A stretch of 39,390 nucleotides of DNA from contig JADGPZ010000009.1 of the NCBI GenBank assembly GCA_017882165.1, positions 1-39,390 of the forward strand, given 5' to 3'. Within the stretch, counting starts at the first letter, position 1. Each line of letters opens with the position of its first letter. The stretch is from Candidatus Kapaibacterium sp. GTDB lineage: Bacteria > Bacteroidota > Ignavibacteria > Palsa-1295. This document shows positions 10,929 through 39,390 of the stretch, piece by piece. The notes beneath the pieces were generated by a model. The model was given only the letters and a program-made list of their open reading frames with translations. It searched no databases and had not been told where the DNA came from. Position numbers and translations under genes: made by a program.

Positions 10929-11593
10929 TCCGCGATCTTACCGGCTTGCATGTAATCGTCGGCGGCGAACGGGCTGTTGAACTCGCCGCGCTCGCCGATC
11001 GGCTCGGAGCGAGCGTCATTCAGCTTCGCGAGAAGGAGAAGCCTGTCGGTGACGTGCTGCGTATTGCCGATGAGATTCGACGCGTAGTAAAGCGAGCCGC
11101 ATTCATCATCAACGATCGCGCCGACATTGCGCGTGCGGTGAGTGCGGATGGAGTGCATCTCGGTCAGGACGATCTGCCCATTGAGTATGCTCGGAAGATT
11201 CTTGGATCCGATGCGATAATTGGTGTTTCCTGCGGCTCCACAGCCGGAGCACTTTCGGTGCAAGCTGCCGGTGCGAATTACGTTGGCTTCGGTCATATTT
11301 ATCCGACAGCATCAAAAGAAAAGACAACTCCTCCGAAGGGTCTGGAAGAACTGTTTGAGGTCGCTGCCGTCCTTTCGGTCCCTGTGATTGCGATTGGTGG
11401 CATCACCCCATTGAACGCAGCGCCAGTGCTTCAAGCGGGCGCCTCCGGCATTGCGGTGATCGGAGCGATTCAGCATTCCGATGATCCCACGCGGACGATT
11501 CGCGAATTGCTATCTGTAGTGGCGCGGTTTCCGCGCCTTTCGGCATCGGCGATCGCAATCCACGAAGGCGCGGAAACCGCGACACTACAATAG
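10925..11593 (+). CDS. thiE: Thiamine-phosphate synthase ThiE
   Basis: ThiE joins HMP-PP and thiazole phosphate into thiamine phosphate. Key motifs are QLREK (33-37), NDRADIA (63-69, binds Mg-diphosphate), HLGQDDLP (78-85), GVSCGS, PTASKEK and VIAIGGI. The FGHIYPT strand carries a His at 124 where many ThiE proteins have Pro, a TenI-like feature. The last 26 residues or so (VVARFPRLSASAIAIHEGAETATLQ region) are not family sequence; they are encoded by an inverted pair of a dispersed repeat (11515-11589) that supplies the present stop region. The protein is 222 residues, slightly longer than usual. The thiF start follows the stop by two bases. Confidence 0.93.
   Translation: MIRDLTGLHVIVGGERAVELAALADRLGASVIQLREKEKPVGDVLRIADEIRRVVKRAAFIINDRADIARAVSADGVHLGQDDLPIEYARKILGSDAIIGVSCGSTAGALSVQAAGANYVGFGHIYPTASKEKTTPPKGLEELFEVAAVLSVPVIAIGGITPLNAAPVLQAGASGIAVIGAIQHSDDPTRTIRELLSVVARFPRLSASAIAIHEGAETATLQ
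11515..11589. repeat. Inverted pair of REP-like repeat units inside the 3' end of thiE
   Basis: The left unit (11515-11539) and right unit (11565-11589) are inverted copies, matching at 24 of 25 positions. Each unit is itself a small hairpin, GGCGCGG-TTT-CCGCGCC, preceded by GTAGT. A third copy and a variant unit occur at 34070-34115. The pair lies wholly within the coding frame of thiE and encodes its C-terminal tail. It could also fold in the mRNA between thiE and thiF and dampen read-through. Confidence 0.85.
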
Positions 11594-23930: not shown

Positions 23931-24799
23931 CCGCCGCAAAGATCGCTTCCGCACCGAAGACATCCCCTCGTGATGCGCAGCGCGAAACGCGGCGCGTAAC
24001 CACGCGCACCATCCGCGAAATGAAATTGCGCGGCGAGAAGATCACGATGATCACCGCCTATGATTACACATTCGCACGGTTATTCGACGAGGCTGGCGCC
24101 GATATTATCTTGGTCGGCGATTCACTCTCGAACGTCATTCAGGGTAACGAGACAACGATCCCCGTCACGTTGGACGAGATGATTTACCACGCTCGTCTTG
24201 TCGTTCGTGGGGCGGGCACGCCAGGGGCGGGGCACGCGATGGTCGTCTGCGATATGCCGTTCATGAGCTTTCAGGTCGGTGCCGATGAAGGCTTCCGCAA
24301 TGCCGGGCGCATCATGAAGGAAGCTGGCGCTGGCGCGGTGAAGGTCGAAGGAGGCGAGCGGGTCTGCGAGTTGGTTCGCCGTATGAGTGAAGCCGGCATT
24401 CCCGTCATGGGACACCTGGGACTCACGCCGCAGTCGATCCACCAGTTTGGCTCTTATATCACGCGTGGAAAGTCGCATGCCGAAGCCGAGCAGCTCAAGC
24501 GTGACGCGAAGGCGCTCGAAGATGCGGGAGTATTCTCCATCGTGCTCGAAAAAATCCCGGCCACACTTGCGAAGCAGGTAACGGCCTCGCTCAAAGTCTC
24601 GACCATTGGCATCGGCGCGGGACCGGATTGCGATGGGCAAGTCCTCGTCATGCACGACATGCTCGGACTGACCGAGGAATTTCACCCCCGATTTGTCCGC
24701 CACTATGCCGCGCTTGCCGATACCGTGCGCGATGCAGTCCGCCGCTACGATTCGGACATCAAGAAGGGCACATTCCCGAACAAAGAGGAATCGTACTGA
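23897..24799 (+). CDS. panB: 3-methyl-2-oxobutanoate hydroxymethyltransferase PanB
   Basis: PanB transfers a hydroxymethyl group to ketoisovalerate, giving ketopantoate for coenzyme A. The TIM-barrel motifs are MITAYDYTFARLFDEAGADI, LVGDSLSNVIQGNETTIPVT (metal Asp), VVCDMPFMSF, GHLGLTPQSIHQFG, FSIVLEKIP (catalytic Glu) and TIGIGAGPDCDGQVLVMHDM. The first 35 residues are a low-complexity Ala/Ser/Thr-rich extension before TRTIREMKLRGEKI; the ATG at 23897 lies inside lipM, so the true start could be later, but no good ATG is available until EMK. Pantothenate and lipoate biosynthesis genes are next to each other, both feeding acyl-carrier cofactors. Confidence 0.97.
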   Translation: MPRTSTNGAPVAAAKIASAPKTSPRDAQRETRRVTTRTIREMKLRGEKITMITAYDYTFARLFDEAGADIILVGDSLSNVIQGNETTIPVTLDEMIYHARLVVRGAGTPGAGHAMVVCDMPFMSFQVGADEGFRNAGRIMKEAGAGAVKVEGGERVCELVRRMSEAGIPVMGHLGLTPQSIHQFGSYITRGKSHAEAEQLKRDAKALEDAGVFSIVLEKIPATLAKQVTASLKVSTIGIGAGPDCDGQVLVMHDMLGLTEEFHPRFVRHYAALADTVRDAVRRYDSDIKKGTFPNKEESY

Positions 24800-24830
24800 A
24801 ACTGCTATCGCCTCGGTGTGTTCTCTATTT

Positions 24831-24899
24831 GTGCGAAGTAGATTCGGTCTTTTCTTTCTCGGGTTAGCATTGCTCACGCTTTGCTGGAGCGATTCCTAA
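24831..24899 (+). pseudogene. Detached signal peptide, ended by TAA, of the following barrel-like protein
   Basis: A GTG at 24831 opens MRSRFGLFFLGLALLTLCWS and DS, then TAA (24897-24899). The positively charged start, hydrophobic core and polar end make a textbook signal peptide. The same frame continues after the stop as AQSQPPVESAQLSGAY, which leads straight into the next gene. If the TAA were a Tyr codon (TAT or TAC), the sequence would be S-Y-A-Q, a good signal peptidase site. This suggests one gene broken by a single-base change or by a sequence error. Confidence 0.65.
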
Positions 24900-30904: not shown

Positions 30905-31384
30905 ATGAAAAAAATACTAATCGTTCTTTCGCTGGCCGTATTAACTACCGCTTTTCGTCCGATACCTCCTCCAACTTCTACACTCCCGCCCGTTCCCCCC
31001 ACGGCGGGTGTGGTTCTCAACTCCCCCTCCTCTGAAAGAGGAGGGGGCTGGGGGGTGGTGCTGGCCCAGCCCCTGAGTCCTGGGGTGGTCTTTCCCGACT
31101 GCTACACCTTCACAGTCGATAACGGCTCATCGGACTCCATCGGCAATGTGAGGATCAGTGGCGCGAGCAGCTACGCCGATTTCAATGTAGTCACGACCGC
31201 CTCCTACGAGCAGAGCGTCTGCTTTACGGCTATGTCGGTCACGGTCAACGGCGTTGCCGTCACATATCCGAACTCCGGCGACGTACAACTCGCAAGCGGC
31301 GTGTGGGTCAAAGTCATCTGGCAATCGCCTAGCTTCATCGAGATCGCAGATGAACGCGGGACGAATTCCCCCGTCCGCCAATGA
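30905..31384 (+). CDS. Small secreted protein with repeat-derived N-terminal linker (159 aa)
   Basis: The signal-like start MKKILIVLSLAVLTTAF is followed by a Pro/Gly/Ser-rich stretch of about 45 residues (RPIPPPTSTLPPVPP to SSERGGGWGVVLAQPLSPG). That stretch is largely encoded by a GC-rich palindromic repeat (31019-31060). Next comes a small beta domain with two Cys: CYTFTVDNGSSDSIGNVRIS and SVCFTAMSVTVNGVAVTYP. The sequence VVLAQPLSPG after the repeat looks like the end of a signal peptide, so the repeat may have entered between its core and its cleavage site. The family was not recognised. The stop overlaps an alternative upstream start of the next gene. Confidence 0.7.
   Translation: MKKILIVLSLAVLTTAFRPIPPPTSTLPPVPPTAGVVLNSPSSERGGGWGVVLAQPLSPGVVFPDCYTFTVDNGSSDSIGNVRISGASSYADFNVVTTASYEQSVCFTAMSVTVNGVAVTYPNSGDVQLASGVWVKVIWQSPSFIEIADERGTNSPVRQ
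31019..31060 (+). repeat. GC-rich REP-like palindrome inside the coding region at 30905
   Basis: CCCCCTCCTC and GAGGAGGGGG form a hairpin around TGAAA, followed by CTGGGGGGTGGTG. The copy at 16950-16987 (opposite strand) has the same build: a CCCCC/GGGGG hairpin with a different inner stem and the tail GGCAGGGGGTGGTT. Changes inside the stem keep pairing. In this copy the sequence is read as protein. Confidence 0.75.
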
Positions 31385-31412
31385 GCGCGAACACCAAACA
31401 AGTTTTTTTGAA

Positions 31413-31502
31413 GCTCCAGCCGGCTTTGCCGGCGGGAGCGGAAAAAGAAGCCGGTGGTTGCGGCCCGGCTGATGCTTCAAAACCCCTGGCACGCAACCGG
31501 CT
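31413..31502 (+). promoter_or_regulatory. Structured leader before the Cys-rich secreted protein
   Basis: Two strong inverted repeats lie between the genes. GCTCC-N17-GGAGC (31413-31439) encloses a perfect GCCGGC-TTT-GCCGGC. AGCCGGTGGTTGCG (31449-31462) pairs with CGCAACCGGCT (31492-31502) apart from a three-base bulge. No known riboswitch consensus could be fitted. It may be a leader RNA element or another repeat. Confidence 0.35.
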
Positions 31503-31533
31503 GGGATCTTGTAACTTAGTTAGGAACAGTATT

Positions 31534-32031
31534 ATGAAAAATCGAATTCCATTACGAATGTTGGCGCTGGCAGGACTCCTGCTCGCGTTGACAATACCAG
31601 CGAGCAAGAGCTTCGCACTGACCTTAGGGCAGACATCGATCGGTTATGTTGACCAGTATGGTAATGGGGTGCTGACAGTCGCCGATAGCGTACTCGAAGC
31701 AGCCTTCACCGACGAGCTCAATCACGATGCCGATGATTCGCTTCACAATGCCACCATATCCAGCGTTAGTATCATACCAATTGGCGGCACATACTACCTC
31801 GTTGGCGAAGGCAGCAGCGATTCGTGCTCGTCCATCATCGTAAAAGTGGTAGTCACCAGCGGTCCAGCAGGGCTTCTCAAGATCAACGACAATCAGTCAG
31901 TCCATTGTTCTTGTGGAACCGGAGGGATGGACACCTGTCCTGCGGATTGTTCAGCGACCATCATATGTCCTTGTAATCCCCAGGCATCAAATCTCTATAA
32001 CGGTGCAAACCATCTTGGTAACTTCTATTAA
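31534..32031 (+). CDS. Small secreted Cys-rich protein (165 aa)
   Basis: MKNRIPLRMLALAGLLLALT followed by IPASKSFA is a clear signal peptide, which fixes the ATG at 31534; an in-frame upstream start at 31381 has only low-complexity sequence. The mature protein begins LTLGQTSIGYVDQYGNGVLT. The C-terminal part has a Cys cluster, HCSCGTGGMDTCPADC then SATIICPCNP, with eight Cys in under 50 residues. This may form disulfides or bind metal. The family was not recognised. It precedes a secreted thioredoxin-like protein gene by about 85 bases. Confidence 0.75.
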   Translation: MKNRIPLRMLALAGLLLALTIPASKSFALTLGQTSIGYVDQYGNGVLTVADSVLEAAFTDELNHDADDSLHNATISSVSIIPIGGTYYLVGEGSSDSCSSIIVKVVVTSGPAGLLKINDNQSVHCSCGTGGMDTCPADCSATIICPCNPQASNLYNGANHLGNFY

Positions 32032-32115
32032 TTCTGAACCGTTGTGTAACGCTCTCCGCTGCTTCATTCTGGAGCGGCGGGGAGTATCATTAGATTAAGT
32101 AATTTGAGTCAGGTT

Positions 32116-33573
32116 ATGAACATAGTTAAGGCTTCAGTCATTCTTGCTCTTCTCTTTGCGCTTACTAGTAATGACGCTTCGAGCCAAATTCCGAGCAGTA
32201 ACACGCGATCCATACATCTCGCGTCTCTTGAGGTGCGGACAAATCAGTCCGGAGGTCTTTGGGCTTACCTTCTCGAGAACAAGTTTCTCAACCTTCGCCG
32301 GCGCATCGTCGACTCCACGTTGGTGGATAGCGGAGGCGTGATTAGATTCAGGTTTGCCCCGAATCCGAATTACTGGTATTCAGTCGAGGTAGGTGAAATG
32401 CCGGTGGCTTATGGCTCCTTTGCGCTGGGAGACAGCATAGTCATCCAAAGAAATCCCGGTGCATTCATACTCCAGGTTCTCTATGATAGGATTGGAGCGT
32501 TCACAGTCGCAAACGACTATTATTATTACTATGGAGGGAAGGCCACTACTCTGGACCCGCTAAAGGATACGTCTTGCCAAGGAATTTCCAAGTATCTGGA
32601 TTCAGCGAGGGCAATTTCGCAGCATCTACATGCACTGGCTGTCTCGGTTCACACAAAATTTCCTGAGCGTACATACTTTGTGCGGGATTTACGCAGGTGG
32701 TCCCAACTATTTGAGACATTCGCGATGGCAGCGCTTGCTAATCAAGTTGAGCGGGGTGCTCTTCCCACCTGCAAATCTTATCCAGGCCGCTGGCTCGACA
32801 CTGTTACCCTTAATTTCCGCGGTGAGCAGCTTAACCCGATCGATCTTGCTTTCATAACCTCATTTATTCTTGAGGCGCGGTATAATCGACTGAAACGGCT
32901 TGATTCAATCGTGTCTCGTCACTATGGTCTCGAAGCAAGGTTCCAGATTGCTATGCAGTTCAATGGCTTCGCTCGCGACCTCGCGTTTATTCGGCTTGCG
33001 GAAACGGCGTCTTCAGTGCCTCCAGAGGAGTTGTTACAGTTCTATGAGCGCATGTTGGACACGATACGTGTCCGTCGAGGGAGTGCGGATGTGCGCAAGA
33101 TTCTGGAGAACCGCATGTCGATTCTCCTCCACAGAAAAGCGGGTTCATCCGCCTATAATCTCATGCTGCCTGACTCAAATTATAAATTGAAGACTCTTCG
33201 AGATTACCGTGGGAAGGCAGTTCTCGTCCACTTTTGGGGGACGTGGTGTGGTCCGTGCTTGAACGAGCTATCTCGCTCCGAAGAATTCGAGCGTCAACAT
33301 TCAGGCGACACTGACCTCGTGTTCTTGAACGTTTCGTTAGAGGATCATAATTATGTGAAATGGAAGAAGTTCTGCAGCACTCATGATCTGGCCGGCATCA
33401 ATCTCTATGCGGAGGGTCTATGGCAGAGTGAAGCTGCACAGAATTACGGTATCACAGTGGTTCCATCGCGCGTCCTCATCGACAGGCAAGGTAGAATTGT
33501 GAATTCTTACATGGGCAGCAGTTGGAAGGATGAAGATGTGGAGTATGGAATCAAAATCGCGGAGCATCATTAG
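32116..33573 (+). CDS. TlpA-like secreted thioredoxin-fold protein (485 aa)
   Basis: A signal peptide MNIVKASVILALLFALTSND (then ASSQ) starts at ATG 32116; a TTG at 32104 is in frame but adds nothing. Residues 25-350 are an N-terminal domain of the kind seen in Bacteroidota thiol-disulfide interchange proteins (HLASLEVRTNQSGGLWAYLL; a beta-sandwich then helices). The C-terminal thioredoxin domain has VLVHFWGTWCGPCLNELSRS, with the redox pair WCGPC at 377-381, and the cis-Pro region ITVVPSRVLIDRQGRIV. It probably reduces or exchanges disulfides of periplasmic or exported proteins, possibly the Cys-rich neighbours. That partnership is inference from proximity. Confidence 0.9.
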   Translation: MNIVKASVILALLFALTSNDASSQIPSSNTRSIHLASLEVRTNQSGGLWAYLLENKFLNLRRRIVDSTLVDSGGVIRFRFAPNPNYWYSVEVGEMPVAYGSFALGDSIVIQRNPGAFILQVLYDRIGAFTVANDYYYYYGGKATTLDPLKDTSCQGISKYLDSARAISQHLHALAVSVHTKFPERTYFVRDLRRWSQLFETFAMAALANQVERGALPTCKSYPGRWLDTVTLNFRGEQLNPIDLAFITSFILEARYNRLKRLDSIVSRHYGLEARFQIAMQFNGFARDLAFIRLAETASSVPPEELLQFYERMLDTIRVRRGSADVRKILENRMSILLHRKAGSSAYNLMLPDSNYKLKTLRDYRGKAVLVHFWGTWCGPCLNELSRSEEFERQHSGDTDLVFLNVSLEDHNYVKWKKFCSTHDLAGINLYAEGLWQSEAAQNYGITVVPSRVLIDRQGRIVNSYMGSSWKDEDVEYGIKIAEHH

Positions 33574-33600
33574 CACTCGACCCTACATCTTTCTAGACTT

Positions 33601-33689
33601 TCTCCCGCCTTCCCGCCGGCGTCTATTACGTGAGCGATGGAGGCAGCACCAATGGTGCGCCGCGCCGCGCGCGGTTTGTGAAGGAGTGA
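33601..33689 (+). pseudogene. Orphan fragment of a T9SS sorting tail
   Basis: Translated in frame from 33603 this reads SRLPAGVYYVSDGGSTNGAP, then RRARFVKE and TGA: the last 28 residues of a T9SS C-terminal domain without any gene body or start. It is identical at 82 of 83 positions to the end of the gene at 37954-39390 (39308-39390). It lies 27 bases after the thioredoxin gene stop and 28 bases before the next start. It is probably the scar of a deletion or recombination between copies. Confidence 0.85.
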
Positions 33690-33717
33690 GGGCGGGCGGG
33701 ACGCTGTTCATTGTAAT

Positions 33718-35523
33718 ATGCGGCGGCTTGCAATTCTCATAGGTCTCTCGTTTCTCGGCAGCATCGGCGCATCGTGGGCGATTGCTCCATCGCTGGCGCT
33801 GGCTCAATCGTGGGAGCCGGTTGGCGGAGAGGCGTTTGTTGCTATCGCTGGTCTGAGCGATGGCGCGCTCGTCATGGTCCGCGAGCCGGGTGATATTCTC
33901 CGCAGCAGCGATCACGGCGCGACGTGGCATCGGGTGTATCATGGGCTCACGAGCCTGACCGGGATCGAGCGCGCAGGCGATACGGCGTTCGCATTTTACG
34001 ATAGCGTCGCCGTTCTCGTCTCGCACGATACCGGGCGAACGTGGAGAGGAGTGGATGCCGGAAGCGGCCAGGCGCGGAAACCGCGCCACTACAGTAGTGG
34101 CTGGGTTTCCCAGCCTCCTCTCCCTTCGGCAAAAGGCGATACCATTCTCGCAACTGCGACGGTCGATTCGGTCTGCTATGCGGTCGGCGCGCCGGGATTA
34201 GTGTATGTGTCGGACGCGAGCAAGCAGCACTGGCGGCGGTTGCATCGAGCGCCGTTCTCATCTGCGGGCGCGTCAGCGAGCGCGCCGGGGTCGGCACGCT
34301 CCACGCGGCTTGTTGATTTCTTCACTGCTGCCAGCGGCGCAATCCTGCGCGATAGCCTCCTCTACGTCACGCACGACTCCGGTACAACATGGCAGGAAGT
34401 CCGCACAGGTCTGCGCGTAGCGAGTGCGATGCTGATGCTCTCGGATACGTCGGCGCTTGTTGGCGATACCAGTGGTTCGCTTGCACTTGTGAGAAGCGAC
34501 TCCACGCATCGGCTCGATTCAATGCTCGGAGCGAAGCGTCCCATCATTCAGATTGGCTGGCGGAATAAGCCGAACGGCGACATCTACATCCTCACCGATT
34601 CCGCGATGTATCTTACGACGACGAGCTTCGAGTCCGTCACTTCGCGTGCGCTGCCTCTCCGCGCCGGCGAGCATGCCACGAGCGCGAGCTATCCCGATCC
34701 CTATACATGCTACGTCATCGCGGATTCCATCACACGTCTCGACACAACAACGCTCACGGATAACATCACGCACGACACGACGATCTATCACGACACGAGC
34801 ACGGTCTATCTCACAACTGATGGCGGCGCTACGTGGGCAACCACGACAAGCGGGCTTGTGAACCTGAAGAAGATTTTCTTCGCCTCTTCCAAAAGCGGCT
34901 ATGCGTGCGGCCCGCATGGCGCGCTCATGTTTACCGCGGACAGCAGCCTCACGTGGCACCGCTCGTTCGTGCCGAGAGCGCAGGACTTGCATGATGTTCG
35001 CTTCGTCAATGATAGTGCCGGTTATGCCGTGGGCGATAGCGGCATGGTGTTCATGACGCAGAACCGTGGCCGGTGGTGGCGAATGGTCGCGCCCGAGCCG
35101 CTCTTCTCGCATCCGGGCAGTTCATATCAAAGTATTGCCTTCGCCGATGCGCGGACGGTCTATGTGCTCGGCTCGGATCGATGCTACCGGCAAACAATCC
35201 GCGACCCGATGGCAGGCTTTCGCTTCACGCGGCGCACACAGCAGAAGAACACGCTCGCGGTCACGGCCTCGCCGAATCCTTCGAACGGCTTCGTTCGCTT
35301 TACGATCACTTCCAAACAGACTGCGGATGACGGATCGAGTCCCACGCTTGTCATCAGTGATGCCTCCGGCCGGACGGTCGAGCAGCTTCAGGATGTCTCC
35401 GCAGGTGCGATGAATACGTGGAGCGCGACGGCGGATTTCTCGAATCTCACGACCGGTCCCTATACCGCAATTGCCACGCTCGGAGGCGCATCAGGACTGT
35501 GCAAATTCGCGATAGCACACTAA
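33718..35523 (+). CDS. Secreted BNR/Ycf48-like beta-propeller protein with T9SS tail (601 aa)
   Basis: The signal peptide MRRLAILIGLSFLGSIGASW continues to LALAQ. Asp-box/BNR motifs recur: RSSDHGATWHRV, VSHDTGRTWRGV, VTHDSGTTWQEV, LTTDGGATWATT and FTADSSLTWHRS. GYACGPHGALMFT and GYAVGDSGMVFMT are characteristic of Ycf48-like propellers. The last 85 residues are a T9SS sorting domain (VTASPNPSNGFVRFTITSKQ, LVISDASGRTVEQLQ). Residues about 118-140 (ARKPRHYSSGWVSQPP) are encoded by dispersed repeats at 34070-34115 and look like an insertion in a loop between blades. The start follows the orphan T9SS fragment. Confidence 0.87.
   Translation: MRRLAILIGLSFLGSIGASWAIAPSLALAQSWEPVGGEAFVAIAGLSDGALVMVREPGDILRSSDHGATWHRVYHGLTSLTGIERAGDTAFAFYDSVAVLVSHDTGRTWRGVDAGSGQARKPRHYSSGWVSQPPLPSAKGDTILATATVDSVCYAVGAPGLVYVSDASKQHWRRLHRAPFSSAGASASAPGSARSTRLVDFFTAASGAILRDSLLYVTHDSGTTWQEVRTGLRVASAMLMLSDTSALVGDTSGSLALVRSDSTHRLDSMLGAKRPIIQIGWRNKPNGDIYILTDSAMYLTTTSFESVTSRALPLRAGEHATSASYPDPYTCYVIADSITRLDTTTLTDNITHDTTIYHDTSTVYLTTDGGATWATTTSGLVNLKKIFFASSKSGYACGPHGALMFTADSSLTWHRSFVPRAQDLHDVRFVNDSAGYAVGDSGMVFMTQNRGRWWRMVAPEPLFSHPGSSYQSIAFADARTVYVLGSDRCYRQTIRDPMAGFRFTRRTQQKNTLAVTASPNPSNGFVRFTITSKQTADDGSSPTLVISDASGRTVEQLQDVSAGAMNTWSATADFSNLTTGPYTAIATLGGASGLCKFAIAH
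34070..34115. repeat. Back-to-back REP-like units inside the propeller gene
   Basis: The left unit (34071-34092, reverse orientation) is the same as the units in thiE: a GGCGCGG-AAA-CCGCGCC hairpin and CACTAC. The right unit (34094-34115, forward) is a variant, GTAGTGGC then TGGGTTTCCCA then GCC. The two units differ at four positions that keep the stem paired. The central CCACTACAGTAGTGG is itself palindromic. The element stays in frame. Confidence 0.85.
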
Positions 35524-35759: not shown

Positions 35760-36098
35760 ATGAAGAACGGTGATTTCGATTCAAATAATGGAGCGCCCGG
35801 CGATCACTCGGGCGGGGGATGGGAACAACACGATGCCGCCTCGGGCGGCACGTTGCAGGCGCGCGTCCGGGAGTTGCTGCAGGAGTATCCGGAGCTATCG
35901 CTCACGGGCGCCAGGATCAAGGCGCTCGCCGAATACGGATTGACCAACATGAGGATCGCGATTGTGCTCGGACTCAAAGAGCAGACCGTCTATAACCACG
36001 CCTCGAAGATCCGGAAGATTGCCAGCGTGGGAAGGAAGGAGCCGTTTCGCTTGGTTTTCTCCCCCCCCCCCCAAGAACCAAGACTCGACCCCGAATGA
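35760..36098 (+). CDS. Small LuxR-type helix-turn-helix protein ending in a poly-C tract (112 aa)
   Basis: MKNGDFDSNNGAPGDHSGGG begins a flexible, acidic/Gly-rich leader of about 32 residues. Residues 33-90 form a helix-turn-helix: LQARVRELLQEYPELSLTGA, then RIKALAEYGLTNMRIAIVLG and LKEQTVYNHASKIRKIA. The second and third helices match LuxR/GerE-type recognition helices (xNxxIAxxLGxxxxTVxxHxxxIxxK). There is no receiver or sensor domain. A run of 12 C (36061-36072) lies in the codons just before the C-terminus, which here ends FSPPPQEPRLDPE. Changes in tract length would give other tails. It sits in front of secreted protein genes it might regulate. Confidence 0.8.
   Translation: MKNGDFDSNNGAPGDHSGGGWEQHDAASGGTLQARVRELLQEYPELSLTGARIKALAEYGLTNMRIAIVLGLKEQTVYNHASKIRKIASVGRKEPFRLVFSPPPQEPRLDPE
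36061..36072 (+). repeat. Homopolymeric C12 tract within the HTH gene
   Basis: Twelve consecutive C bases inside coding sequence. With 12 C the protein ends 13 residues after the FS codons. With 13 C the frame would extend about 40 residues to a stop near 36190; with 11 C it would extend about 20. Such tracts slip during replication and commonly cause phase variation. Confidence 0.9.
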
Positions 36099-36272
36099 TG
36101 ATAAAAATAAATCCGAAAAAAATGATGGCCGGTAAATTATCGGTAAACAGGTTTTCGAGGAATCGATTATATTGGTACAAGGGAATGTGATGGTTGAATG
36201 GCGGAGATCAAACGATCGATGCCAGCATCGTTTCATTCTTCAGTTCAAAGTCATGTCGTCTGCTTTTTTGAA

Positions 36273-37417: not shown

Positions 37418-37933
37418 ATGATGGAATTGAATTCTCGACGCTTCGCGGCTGTTGCGGTCACCACGCTGGTGTTGATCAGCAGTTTCCTTTTCGCGGACAA
37501 GGGCTATTCGCAACTGCCGCCTTGTAATCCGTTATTAACATGCGACAATTGCCTTGTGGTCGGAATCGATACGAATCATCACCTGTGCGATTGCCCCGAA
37601 GGTTGCTTCACCTGGGACATAAGAAACTGCTGCCCTTCCTCCGTCTGCTCGATCACAATGCACACAAAAGATGGGAAACCGTTTACTACATGCTGCGTTG
37701 TGGTTTATCATCCATCGTATCACCAATGGCACGTGACTCAGAACACCCCAAGCTCTGTTACATACTCAGCCAATACTTCGGCTGACTGCCTAGCCACAGG
37801 CGATTTCATTCAAATCACTACCTGCGGTCTCGACGCATGCGATATGCTGGTCTTCGACTGGGATACGGCTAACAATGAATGCGGAGTTAATGGTACCCAG
37901 GGCCTACACCTTAGAGTGCCACCATGCCATTAA
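37418..37933 (+). CDS. Small secreted protein with about 18 cysteines (171 aa)
   Basis: The ATG at 37418 (or 37421) begins MMELNSRRFAAVAVTTLVLI and SSFLFADKGYSQ, a signal peptide. An in-frame start at 37295 adds 41 residues that do not look like a signal. The mature protein is very Cys-rich: PPCNPLLTCDNC, LCDCPEGCFTW, NCCPSSVC, TTCCVVVYHP, TTCGLDACD. No known knottin or EGF spacing was recognised. Extracellular disulfide-bonded or metal-binding function is likely. It shares size and style with the protein at 31534, but no alignable core was found by eye. Confidence 0.78.
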   Translation: MMELNSRRFAAVAVTTLVLISSFLFADKGYSQLPPCNPLLTCDNCLVVGIDTNHHLCDCPEGCFTWDIRNCCPSSVCSITMHTKDGKPFTTCCVVVYHPSYHQWHVTQNTPSSVTYSANTSADCLATGDFIQITTCGLDACDMLVFDWDTANNECGVNGTQGLHLRVPPCH

Positions 37934-37953
37934 ATGCAACATTTGGAGAGACT

Positions 37954-39390
37954 ATGATAGCATGTCGTAACGTTTACTTCTTCTTATGGGTCTTCGCTGC
38001 GTTAGCGATGGCCCATACTTCCCACGCTCAAATCATTCCGGGGCATTGGCATCGGGTTGCGTTAACGCAAGCCGATCGAGGGGGACGAAATAATAACACC
38101 ATGGACTTTGGCTTCCGGGACAGTCTCAACGGCTTATGCATTTCCGTCCACGGCCTCATTAGCTCGACAACCGATGGCGGTCGTACTTGGGCGCTGGATA
38201 CAGACCTCAAAACGTTTGGAGGCGAGAAGTCCACTCTCAATAGTCTGGAGTGTACCGCGCCGCACTATGGGTTCTTTCACGGCAGTGCCTACTCTATTTC
38301 AATTAAGCCGTCTCGGTCTGTTGAGGTTCGCGCCTACAATGTTCCAGTAGCAGATTCCCAGGAAGTCAATTACGGGGCATACATTTCGCTCGCAGAAAAA
38401 ATGTATGATACAGCATACGGTTTCCGCCTTGTGGAATACGTCAACTGGTATGATCCGAACGACTTCTGGGACACGGTCGCAATCATTGTGACCCACGATG
38501 GCTGGCAAAGCTCCGCGATGTATGGCTCGCCGTACGTCTTGTCTCCCGTCCCTCATCACAGGCAGCTCATGCGTATCGGCTACATCGTCGACAGCAACGA
38601 CGTATGGACAGCAAAGGGAACGGCAGAAAATGAGAACATTCTATTGCATACAACGAACGGTGGGACCTCGTGGCTGGAAATACACCTCTCCGATACTATG
38701 ATAGGCTTCCAGCCGGTGTTTGTGGATATCAATATCCGGCCGAAGACAGGAGAAGTCTTCTGTTTCGGCACATCCAGCGGGGTGGATTTTGCGTACTCCA
38801 GCGATTATGGAACCACATGGTTGCTCAATTCGACGTTTCGAAAGAACATCGGCGAGAATTTTGTGTGGCGTATGGCCAATCCATCGACTGGTATCCTGTG
38901 GGCGATGGTCAGTCAGGGGGGATACTACGAAGTAAAGGTTAGTCCTACGACAGTTGATTTTCCGCAGGATCTTTGCCGAAAGATCGCGTATAGCTCCGAT
39001 AATGGATTTAGCTGGACCATCGACTCCACGACATTTATTGATGATACCCTGTTGGAGATGCATTTCATAAACGCGCGTCACGGATGGATTGCTTCATGGA
39101 GCCACAACAGCCCATTCATGTGGTATTACGATCCGGATGCTACGAGCGATGTGGCTGAAAGTCTTGCGCCGAATTCCGCTCTGATGTTTGTGCTTCCTAA
39201 TCCAGGGCAGACAAGCATAACGGTTGACGGCGCGGGTAAGGACATAGAAATCTTCGATGCACTTGGCCGCTCGCGTGAGTGTCCGCGAACTGGCAACACG
39301 CTCGACATCTCCCGCCTTCCCGCCGGCGTCTATTACGTGAGCGATGGTGGCAGCACCAATGGTGCGCCGCGCCGCGCGCGGTTTGTGAAG
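37954..39390 (+). CDS. Secreted BNR-like protein with T9SS tail, cut at the window end (479 aa seen)
   Basis: The ATG at 37954 opens a frame that runs to the last base. A signal peptide MIACRNVYFFLWVFAALAMA is followed by HTSHAQ. Propeller motifs are STTDGGRTWALD, HTTNGGTSWLEI, YSSDYGTTWLLN and YSSDNGFSWTID. The C-terminal T9SS domain starts at VLPNPGQTSITVDGAGKDIE, then IFDALGR, and ends SRLPAGVYYVSDGG to RRARFVK. In the 82/83 identical orphan copy at 33601 the next codons are GAG TGA, so only one residue and the stop are probably missing. Confidence 0.87.
   Translation, partial: MIACRNVYFFLWVFAALAMAHTSHAQIIPGHWHRVALTQADRGGRNNNTMDFGFRDSLNGLCISVHGLISSTTDGGRTWALDTDLKTFGGEKSTLNSLECTAPHYGFFHGSAYSISIKPSRSVEVRAYNVPVADSQEVNYGAYISLAEKMYDTAYGFRLVEYVNWYDPNDFWDTVAIIVTHDGWQSSAMYGSPYVLSPVPHHRQLMRIGYIVDSNDVWTAKGTAENENILLHTTNGGTSWLEIHLSDTMIGFQPVFVDINIRPKTGEVFCFGTSSGVDFAYSSDYGTTWLLNSTFRKNIGENFVWRMANPSTGILWAMVSQGGYYEVKVSPTTVDFPQDLCRKIAYSSDNGFSWTIDSTTFIDDTLLEMHFINARHGWIASWSHNSPFMWYYDPDATSDVAESLAPNSALMFVLPNPGQTSITVDGAGKDIEIFDALGRSRECPRTGNTLDISRLPAGVYYVSDGGSTNGAPRRARFVK
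39308..39390 (+). repeat. T9SS tail segment duplicated at 33601-33683
   Basis: These 83 bases match 33601-33683 with a single change (T at 39348 for A at 33641). The identity begins a few bases before the codons for SRLPAG and reaches the window end. Both copies keep the same reading frame, but only this one is attached to a gene. Confidence 0.9.

Follow-up and report, generated by a model that had tools for sequence, protein, structure and literature searches.

A bodiless T9SS tail in Candidatus Kapaibacterium sp. read as the probable 3' stub of a replaced cargo gene, and exchange of T9SS tails between genes

A T9SS tail that stands without a gene body upstream of a conserved beta-propeller gene (gene Y) is probably a 3' stub left by a T9SS cargo gene, here called X, whose body was replaced by a gene pair and whose tail is nearly identical to those of two living genes, A and B, presumably through recent homogenization. 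The window in which it was found is a stretch of 39,390 nucleotides and constitutes an entire contig (C144) of the draft genome G000 (249 contigs, 3.46-Mb). A self-BLAST of the window confirmed the 83-base match noticed in the initial annotation: positions 33601-33683 and 39308-39390 are the same at 82 of 83 bases (98.8%, E = 2.4e-36), which is far beyond chance, and the sole mismatch, at 33641, is GGA versus GGT, both of which encode Gly. The likeness of the first copy to living tails runs on through the stop codon, as 33601-33693 equals the start of contig C51 at 92 of 93 bases, including TGA GGGC. This copy indeed lacks a gene body, as had been claimed, with an in-frame open stretch of 30 codons only and a TAG directly upstream. 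Its description as a T9SS sorting domain holds for the C-terminal end of that domain but not for the whole, since the 83 bp encode only about the last 28 residues, or about the last third of the type A sorting domain (TIGR04183 / PF18962) of ~75 residues; the orphan is therefore not a complete sorting domain on a secreted body. The features of the window that bear on its origin are the following.

31381..32031, + strand: small secreted protein with a Cys-rich C-terminal part, the first of the putative replacing pair; the true start is probably an internal ATG
32104..33573, + strand: TlpA/ResA-like secreted thioredoxin-fold protein (Redoxin, 1.7e-13), the second of the putative replacing pair
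33574..33600, no strand: junction of the TlpA-like gene and the orphan tail, 27 bp that are unlike the sequence 5' of other tails; putative replacement breakpoint
33601..33693, + strand: orphan T9SS tail, comprising the last 28 codons, the stop and a few bases beyond (SRLPAGVYYVSDGGSTNGAPRRARFVKE and stop), bodiless and read as the 3' stub of lost gene X
33718..35523, + strand: gene Y, a BNR/Ycf48-like secreted beta-propeller protein; conserved downstream anchor of the site
35760..36098, + strand: small HTH gene (LuxR-like, below the Pfam cut-off) between the repeats
37924..39390, + strand: gene A, a Ycf48/BNR propeller with a T9SS type A sorting domain (TIGR04183), cut by the contig end before its stop
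39292..39390, + strand: 99 bp that equal the end of paralog B (C246:10968), the bodies being 66% identical; putative recent conversion or exchange tract
39308..39390, + strand: second copy of the 83-bp repeat, from the self-BLAST of the window

The site was then compared across related genomes with gene Y as the anchor, which has an ortholog in G001 (68% at the amino acid level) and homologs in G002, G003, G004, and G006. In G002 and G004, a T9SS gene scoring above the TIGR04183 cut-off lies directly 5' of the Y homolog and ends in FVKE and a stop codon, at a distance of ~30 (31) bp from the Y homolog in G002 and ~10 bp in G004, where the open frame of the X gene may be incomplete. The bodies of both of these genes bear only a weak resemblance to gene A outside the tail. 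In G001, the alignment to the window starts at 33662, within the orphan, and reaches into Y without interruption, which places the 3' half of the orphan at its ancestral location. What G001 retains of this tail is a stub of ~30 bases from its end, which lies ~270 bp 3' of another T9SS gene and contains no counterpart of the 5' half of the orphan (33601-33661). As the gene directly upstream of Y in G003 and G006 is not a T9SS gene, the ancestral state rests on G002, G004, and G001, and the differing genes 5' of Y suggest frequent turnover of the site just upstream of it. Gene-replacement remnants in general consist of the 3' end of a lost gene beside a conserved neighbor, where relatives have a gene of that type at the corresponding site; this is what was found in G002 and G004, with a shorter stub in G001, and the orphan differs from such remnants in nothing categorical, being unusual only in its 99% identity to the tail of a living gene. 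Given the T9SS genes 5' of Y in relatives, the orphan is best read as an unmoved 3' stub, rather than as the scar deposited by tail movement that the initial annotation had proposed, and these gene orders make it most likely that a T9SS gene once stood upstream of Y and left its 3' end there.

A tail fragment might instead have been copied from A or B into the intergenic site upstream of Y, by ectopic insertion or one-sided conversion. The 99% identity of the orphan to the A and B tails of the same genome would fit such an origin, as would the tail exchange seen elsewhere in G000 (see below), but a stub of the same tail occupies the orthologous position in G001 and a T9SS gene stands there in G002 and G004. 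In addition, neither a target-site duplication nor a mobile-element signature was seen at the orphan, whose flanks differ without a duplicated target, and a Pfam scan found no transposase among its neighboring genes. We consider this explanation unlikely, with the proviso that a stub already in place may have had its 5' half overwritten by conversion. It has also to be asked whether the stub was kept for a candidate function, either as leader or ribosome-binding context of Y or as a silent tail donor for conversion. A stretch of 25 bases (GCGCGGTTTGTGAAGGAGTGAG.GC) that includes AAGGAG is the same at 24 positions in the G000 and G001 stubs, compared with 70.7% in the adjoining Y gene, and the chance of such a match is ~0.002 before allowing for the choice of stretch. 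However, the distance of ~30 bases between this AAGGAG and the ATG of Y is too large for it to serve that start as a ribosome-binding site, and both stubs may be merely recent remnants of conserved tails, making retention for function very unlikely in our view.

The second copy of the repeat had been described as the end of a gene, which is correct insofar as it belongs to the tail of gene A; the gene, however, is cut before its stop, as 39390 is the end of contig C144 at a fork of the assembly graph made by the repeat. One and the same 95-base sequence ends both C144 and C246 and begins both C51 and reverse-complemented C242, and an assembly k of 95 was inferred from these contig-end overlaps. 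The incoming contigs (C144 and C246) have 99 bases in common and the outgoing contigs (C51 and C242) likewise 99. Judged from these overlaps, the fork is the pattern expected where two gene copies have ~103 identical bases in common, and the window ends at a genuine break rather than at a false join. Gene A would thus end in KE TGA (C51) or KE TAG (C242), between which the synteny of C51 and C242 with G001 and G006 made no choice. A scan of the genome collection with gene Y returned no relative that bears a name, and one with RecG returned one uncultured Ignavibacteriae MAG contig (68% identity), and no T9SS gene was recognized among the open frames upstream of its recG. A false join produced by the repeat, either at the orphan or at the contig end, would be in line with the exact termination of the contig in the repeat and with the 95-bp overlap of four contig ends. 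Yet the orphan carries a mismatch, the longest exact runs within its match to the gene A tail are 40 and 42 bp, well below 95, and G001 independently confirms its right flank, whereas the left flank (33600/33601) is known from this assembly alone. An artifact is very improbable on these grounds. Elsewhere in the genome, C6 and C191 both open with a T9SS gene end (the first ~550 bases). The two ends are 95.6% identical across 548 bp and may mark a further break of the assembly within a duplicated T9SS gene. Identical tails can break short-read assemblies inside T9SS genes.

The search of the genome for further copies that had been suggested earlier identified, beside the orphan, two genes with an exactly shared tail (the end of C144 and the end of C246) and one diverged paralog tail (C246:4046); C51 and C242 are the continuations of the two gene copies and add no tail copies. 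Gene A scores 24.7 bits with TIGR04183, above the cut-off of 23, and 23.9 with PF18962, below the Pfam cut-off of 27. It is a predicted T9SS type A cargo by its TIGR04183 score and by the presence of an encoded SprA, the T9SS outer-membrane translocon (TIGR04189 on C155, 550.8 bits, or 695.5 with its neighbor in frame). Its paralogs on C246, B at 10968 and C at 2542, are also Ycf48/BNR propellers with a T9SS type A sorting domain, and the TIGR04183 cut-off is exceeded by A, B, C, and the X genes of the relatives alike. The bodies of A, B, and C are 64-73% identical in DNA, and identity climbs toward the 3' end. Although the identity of their tails may be slightly inflated should near-identical copies have been merged at small-k steps of the assembly, A and B differ at none of the 22 fourfold sites of their last 33 codons, compared with 5 of 15 in the preceding 33 codons and mostly 40-90% further upstream, and the corresponding computation yields (10/15)^22 = 1.3e-4. 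The A/B tail thus shows the abrupt local rise in synonymous-site identity over its flanks that marks gene conversion. Purifying selection alone was ruled out, as the fourfold sites are unchanged too; selection at the protein level is insufficient, and recent conversion or exchange explains the tail. Two further observations concern the surroundings of these genes. Where G001 has a gene A homolog between matching genes, G000 has only ~75 bp (window 24795-24870). A 53-bp sequence of the window (36220-36272) is 87% identical to the sequence just upstream of a T9SS gene of G001 (contig C1), which suggests that 5' leaders as well as tails may be shared.

Sorting-domain tails were also surveyed across the genome, which contains at least 150 T9SS sorting-domain matches. 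The survey covered part of this set, with 77 T9SS genes of G000 compared by BLAST and 62 by tail statistics, and 14 of 78 entries were without a clean frame. Among 1891 pairs from the 62 genes, the background identity of the last 90 nt was 51% (sd 5%, 99th percentile 64%), whereas the identity was 100% for A and B, 93% for L058 and L186, and 82% for L052 and L162. L058 (C86) has a body that matches L160 (C175) and the tail of L186 (C155), and L052 (C185) has a body that matches L044 (C1) and the tail of L162 (C69); in both cases, the bodies of the genes that share a tail are at background. These two chimera events are older. The likeness of L058 and L186 extends beyond the stop codon, partly via a dispersed intergenic repeat with a core of ~40 bp (GGGCGTTCATGAAATGACAATTCAAAAGAGAGAAATTAAAG) and a length of up to ~140 bp, located at L186 1-160 (G000:C155:6021-6180, - strand) and at G001 L095 10366-10405 in reverse complement. 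This repeat has 26 matches in G000. At least 40 occur in G001, where one copy stands between the tail of a T9SS gene and the stub 5' of Y. The idea of the initial annotation that T9SS tails are exchanged or homogenized between genes is supported for G000, as the last 99 bp of A and B are 100% identical despite bodies of 66% identity and two independent chimeras carry the tail of an unrelated gene. The identity of the orphan to the gene A tail is a sign of recent recombination among tails rather than of a tail having been carried to a new place.

These observations are best explained by the following sequence of events, the order of which we infer. Gene X would have lain directly upstream of Y in an ancestor within the genus. 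The tails of its T9SS subfamily would recently have been homogenized or exchanged by recombination over ~100 bp at the 3' end, presumably through RecA-type gene conversion. X would have belonged to the homogenized set, and at the time of its loss its tail would have differed little from those of A and B; the most economical reading of the match between stub and gene A tail is that homogenization with A and B continued until shortly before the loss of the body. Conversion onto an already existing stub would be an alternative step. In the G000 lineage, the X body would have been swapped for the small Cys-rich secreted protein and the TlpA-like protein, with only the last ~93 bp of X remaining beside Y, and a separate event in G001 would have left the even shorter stub. 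The TlpA-like gene has homologs in G001 at C1:459849 and C1:462046, away from the syntenic Y locus, and the pair of small secreted protein and TlpA-like protein occurs there twice in tandem (C1:459-463 kb, L134 3075-7432). The small secreted proteins of the recurring pair (window 31381-33573) end in NHLGNFY, and the pair possibly comprises a peptide and its dedicated thiol oxidoreductase. The two copies of the 83-bp repeat are in direct orientation and could recombine, but their longest exact runs are 40 and 42 bp, and the deletion of 33.6-39.3 kb (5.7 kb) between them that had been envisaged is possible in principle. The small HTH gene between the repeats has a C12 tract near its 3' end (36061-36072) and is a candidate for slippage.

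A search of the literature on T9SS together with gene conversion, recombination, or domain shuffling, with most subscription journals outside its range, yielded a single relevant paper. In Porphyromonas gingivalis, T9SS surface proteins undergo domain rearrangement and allelic exchange, and gene conversion has been discussed as a route to variation (PMC5266723). The two systems have in common that T9SS cargo genes share or rearrange domains and undergo allelic exchange. In P. gingivalis, however, adhesin and catalytic domains vary between strains, whereas the variable part described here is the last ~30-90 codons of the sorting domain, compared within a single genome, and the host is an Ignavibacteriae-like bacterium. 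We tentatively put forward, as a possibility that is more doubtful than not, that T9SS cargo genes in this genus have 3' ends that serve as common homology arms, such that export signals would be swapped or homogenized genome-wide among many of these genes, giving rise to new combinations of body and tail and to stubs where bodies were exchanged. The orphan itself is an ordinary gene remnant, and the interesting part is the recurrent exchange of 3' tails among many T9SS cargo genes. If general, such exchange would provide a concrete, countable signature of recombination and would explain how a bacterium with so many T9SS-tail matches keeps and redistributes its export signals.
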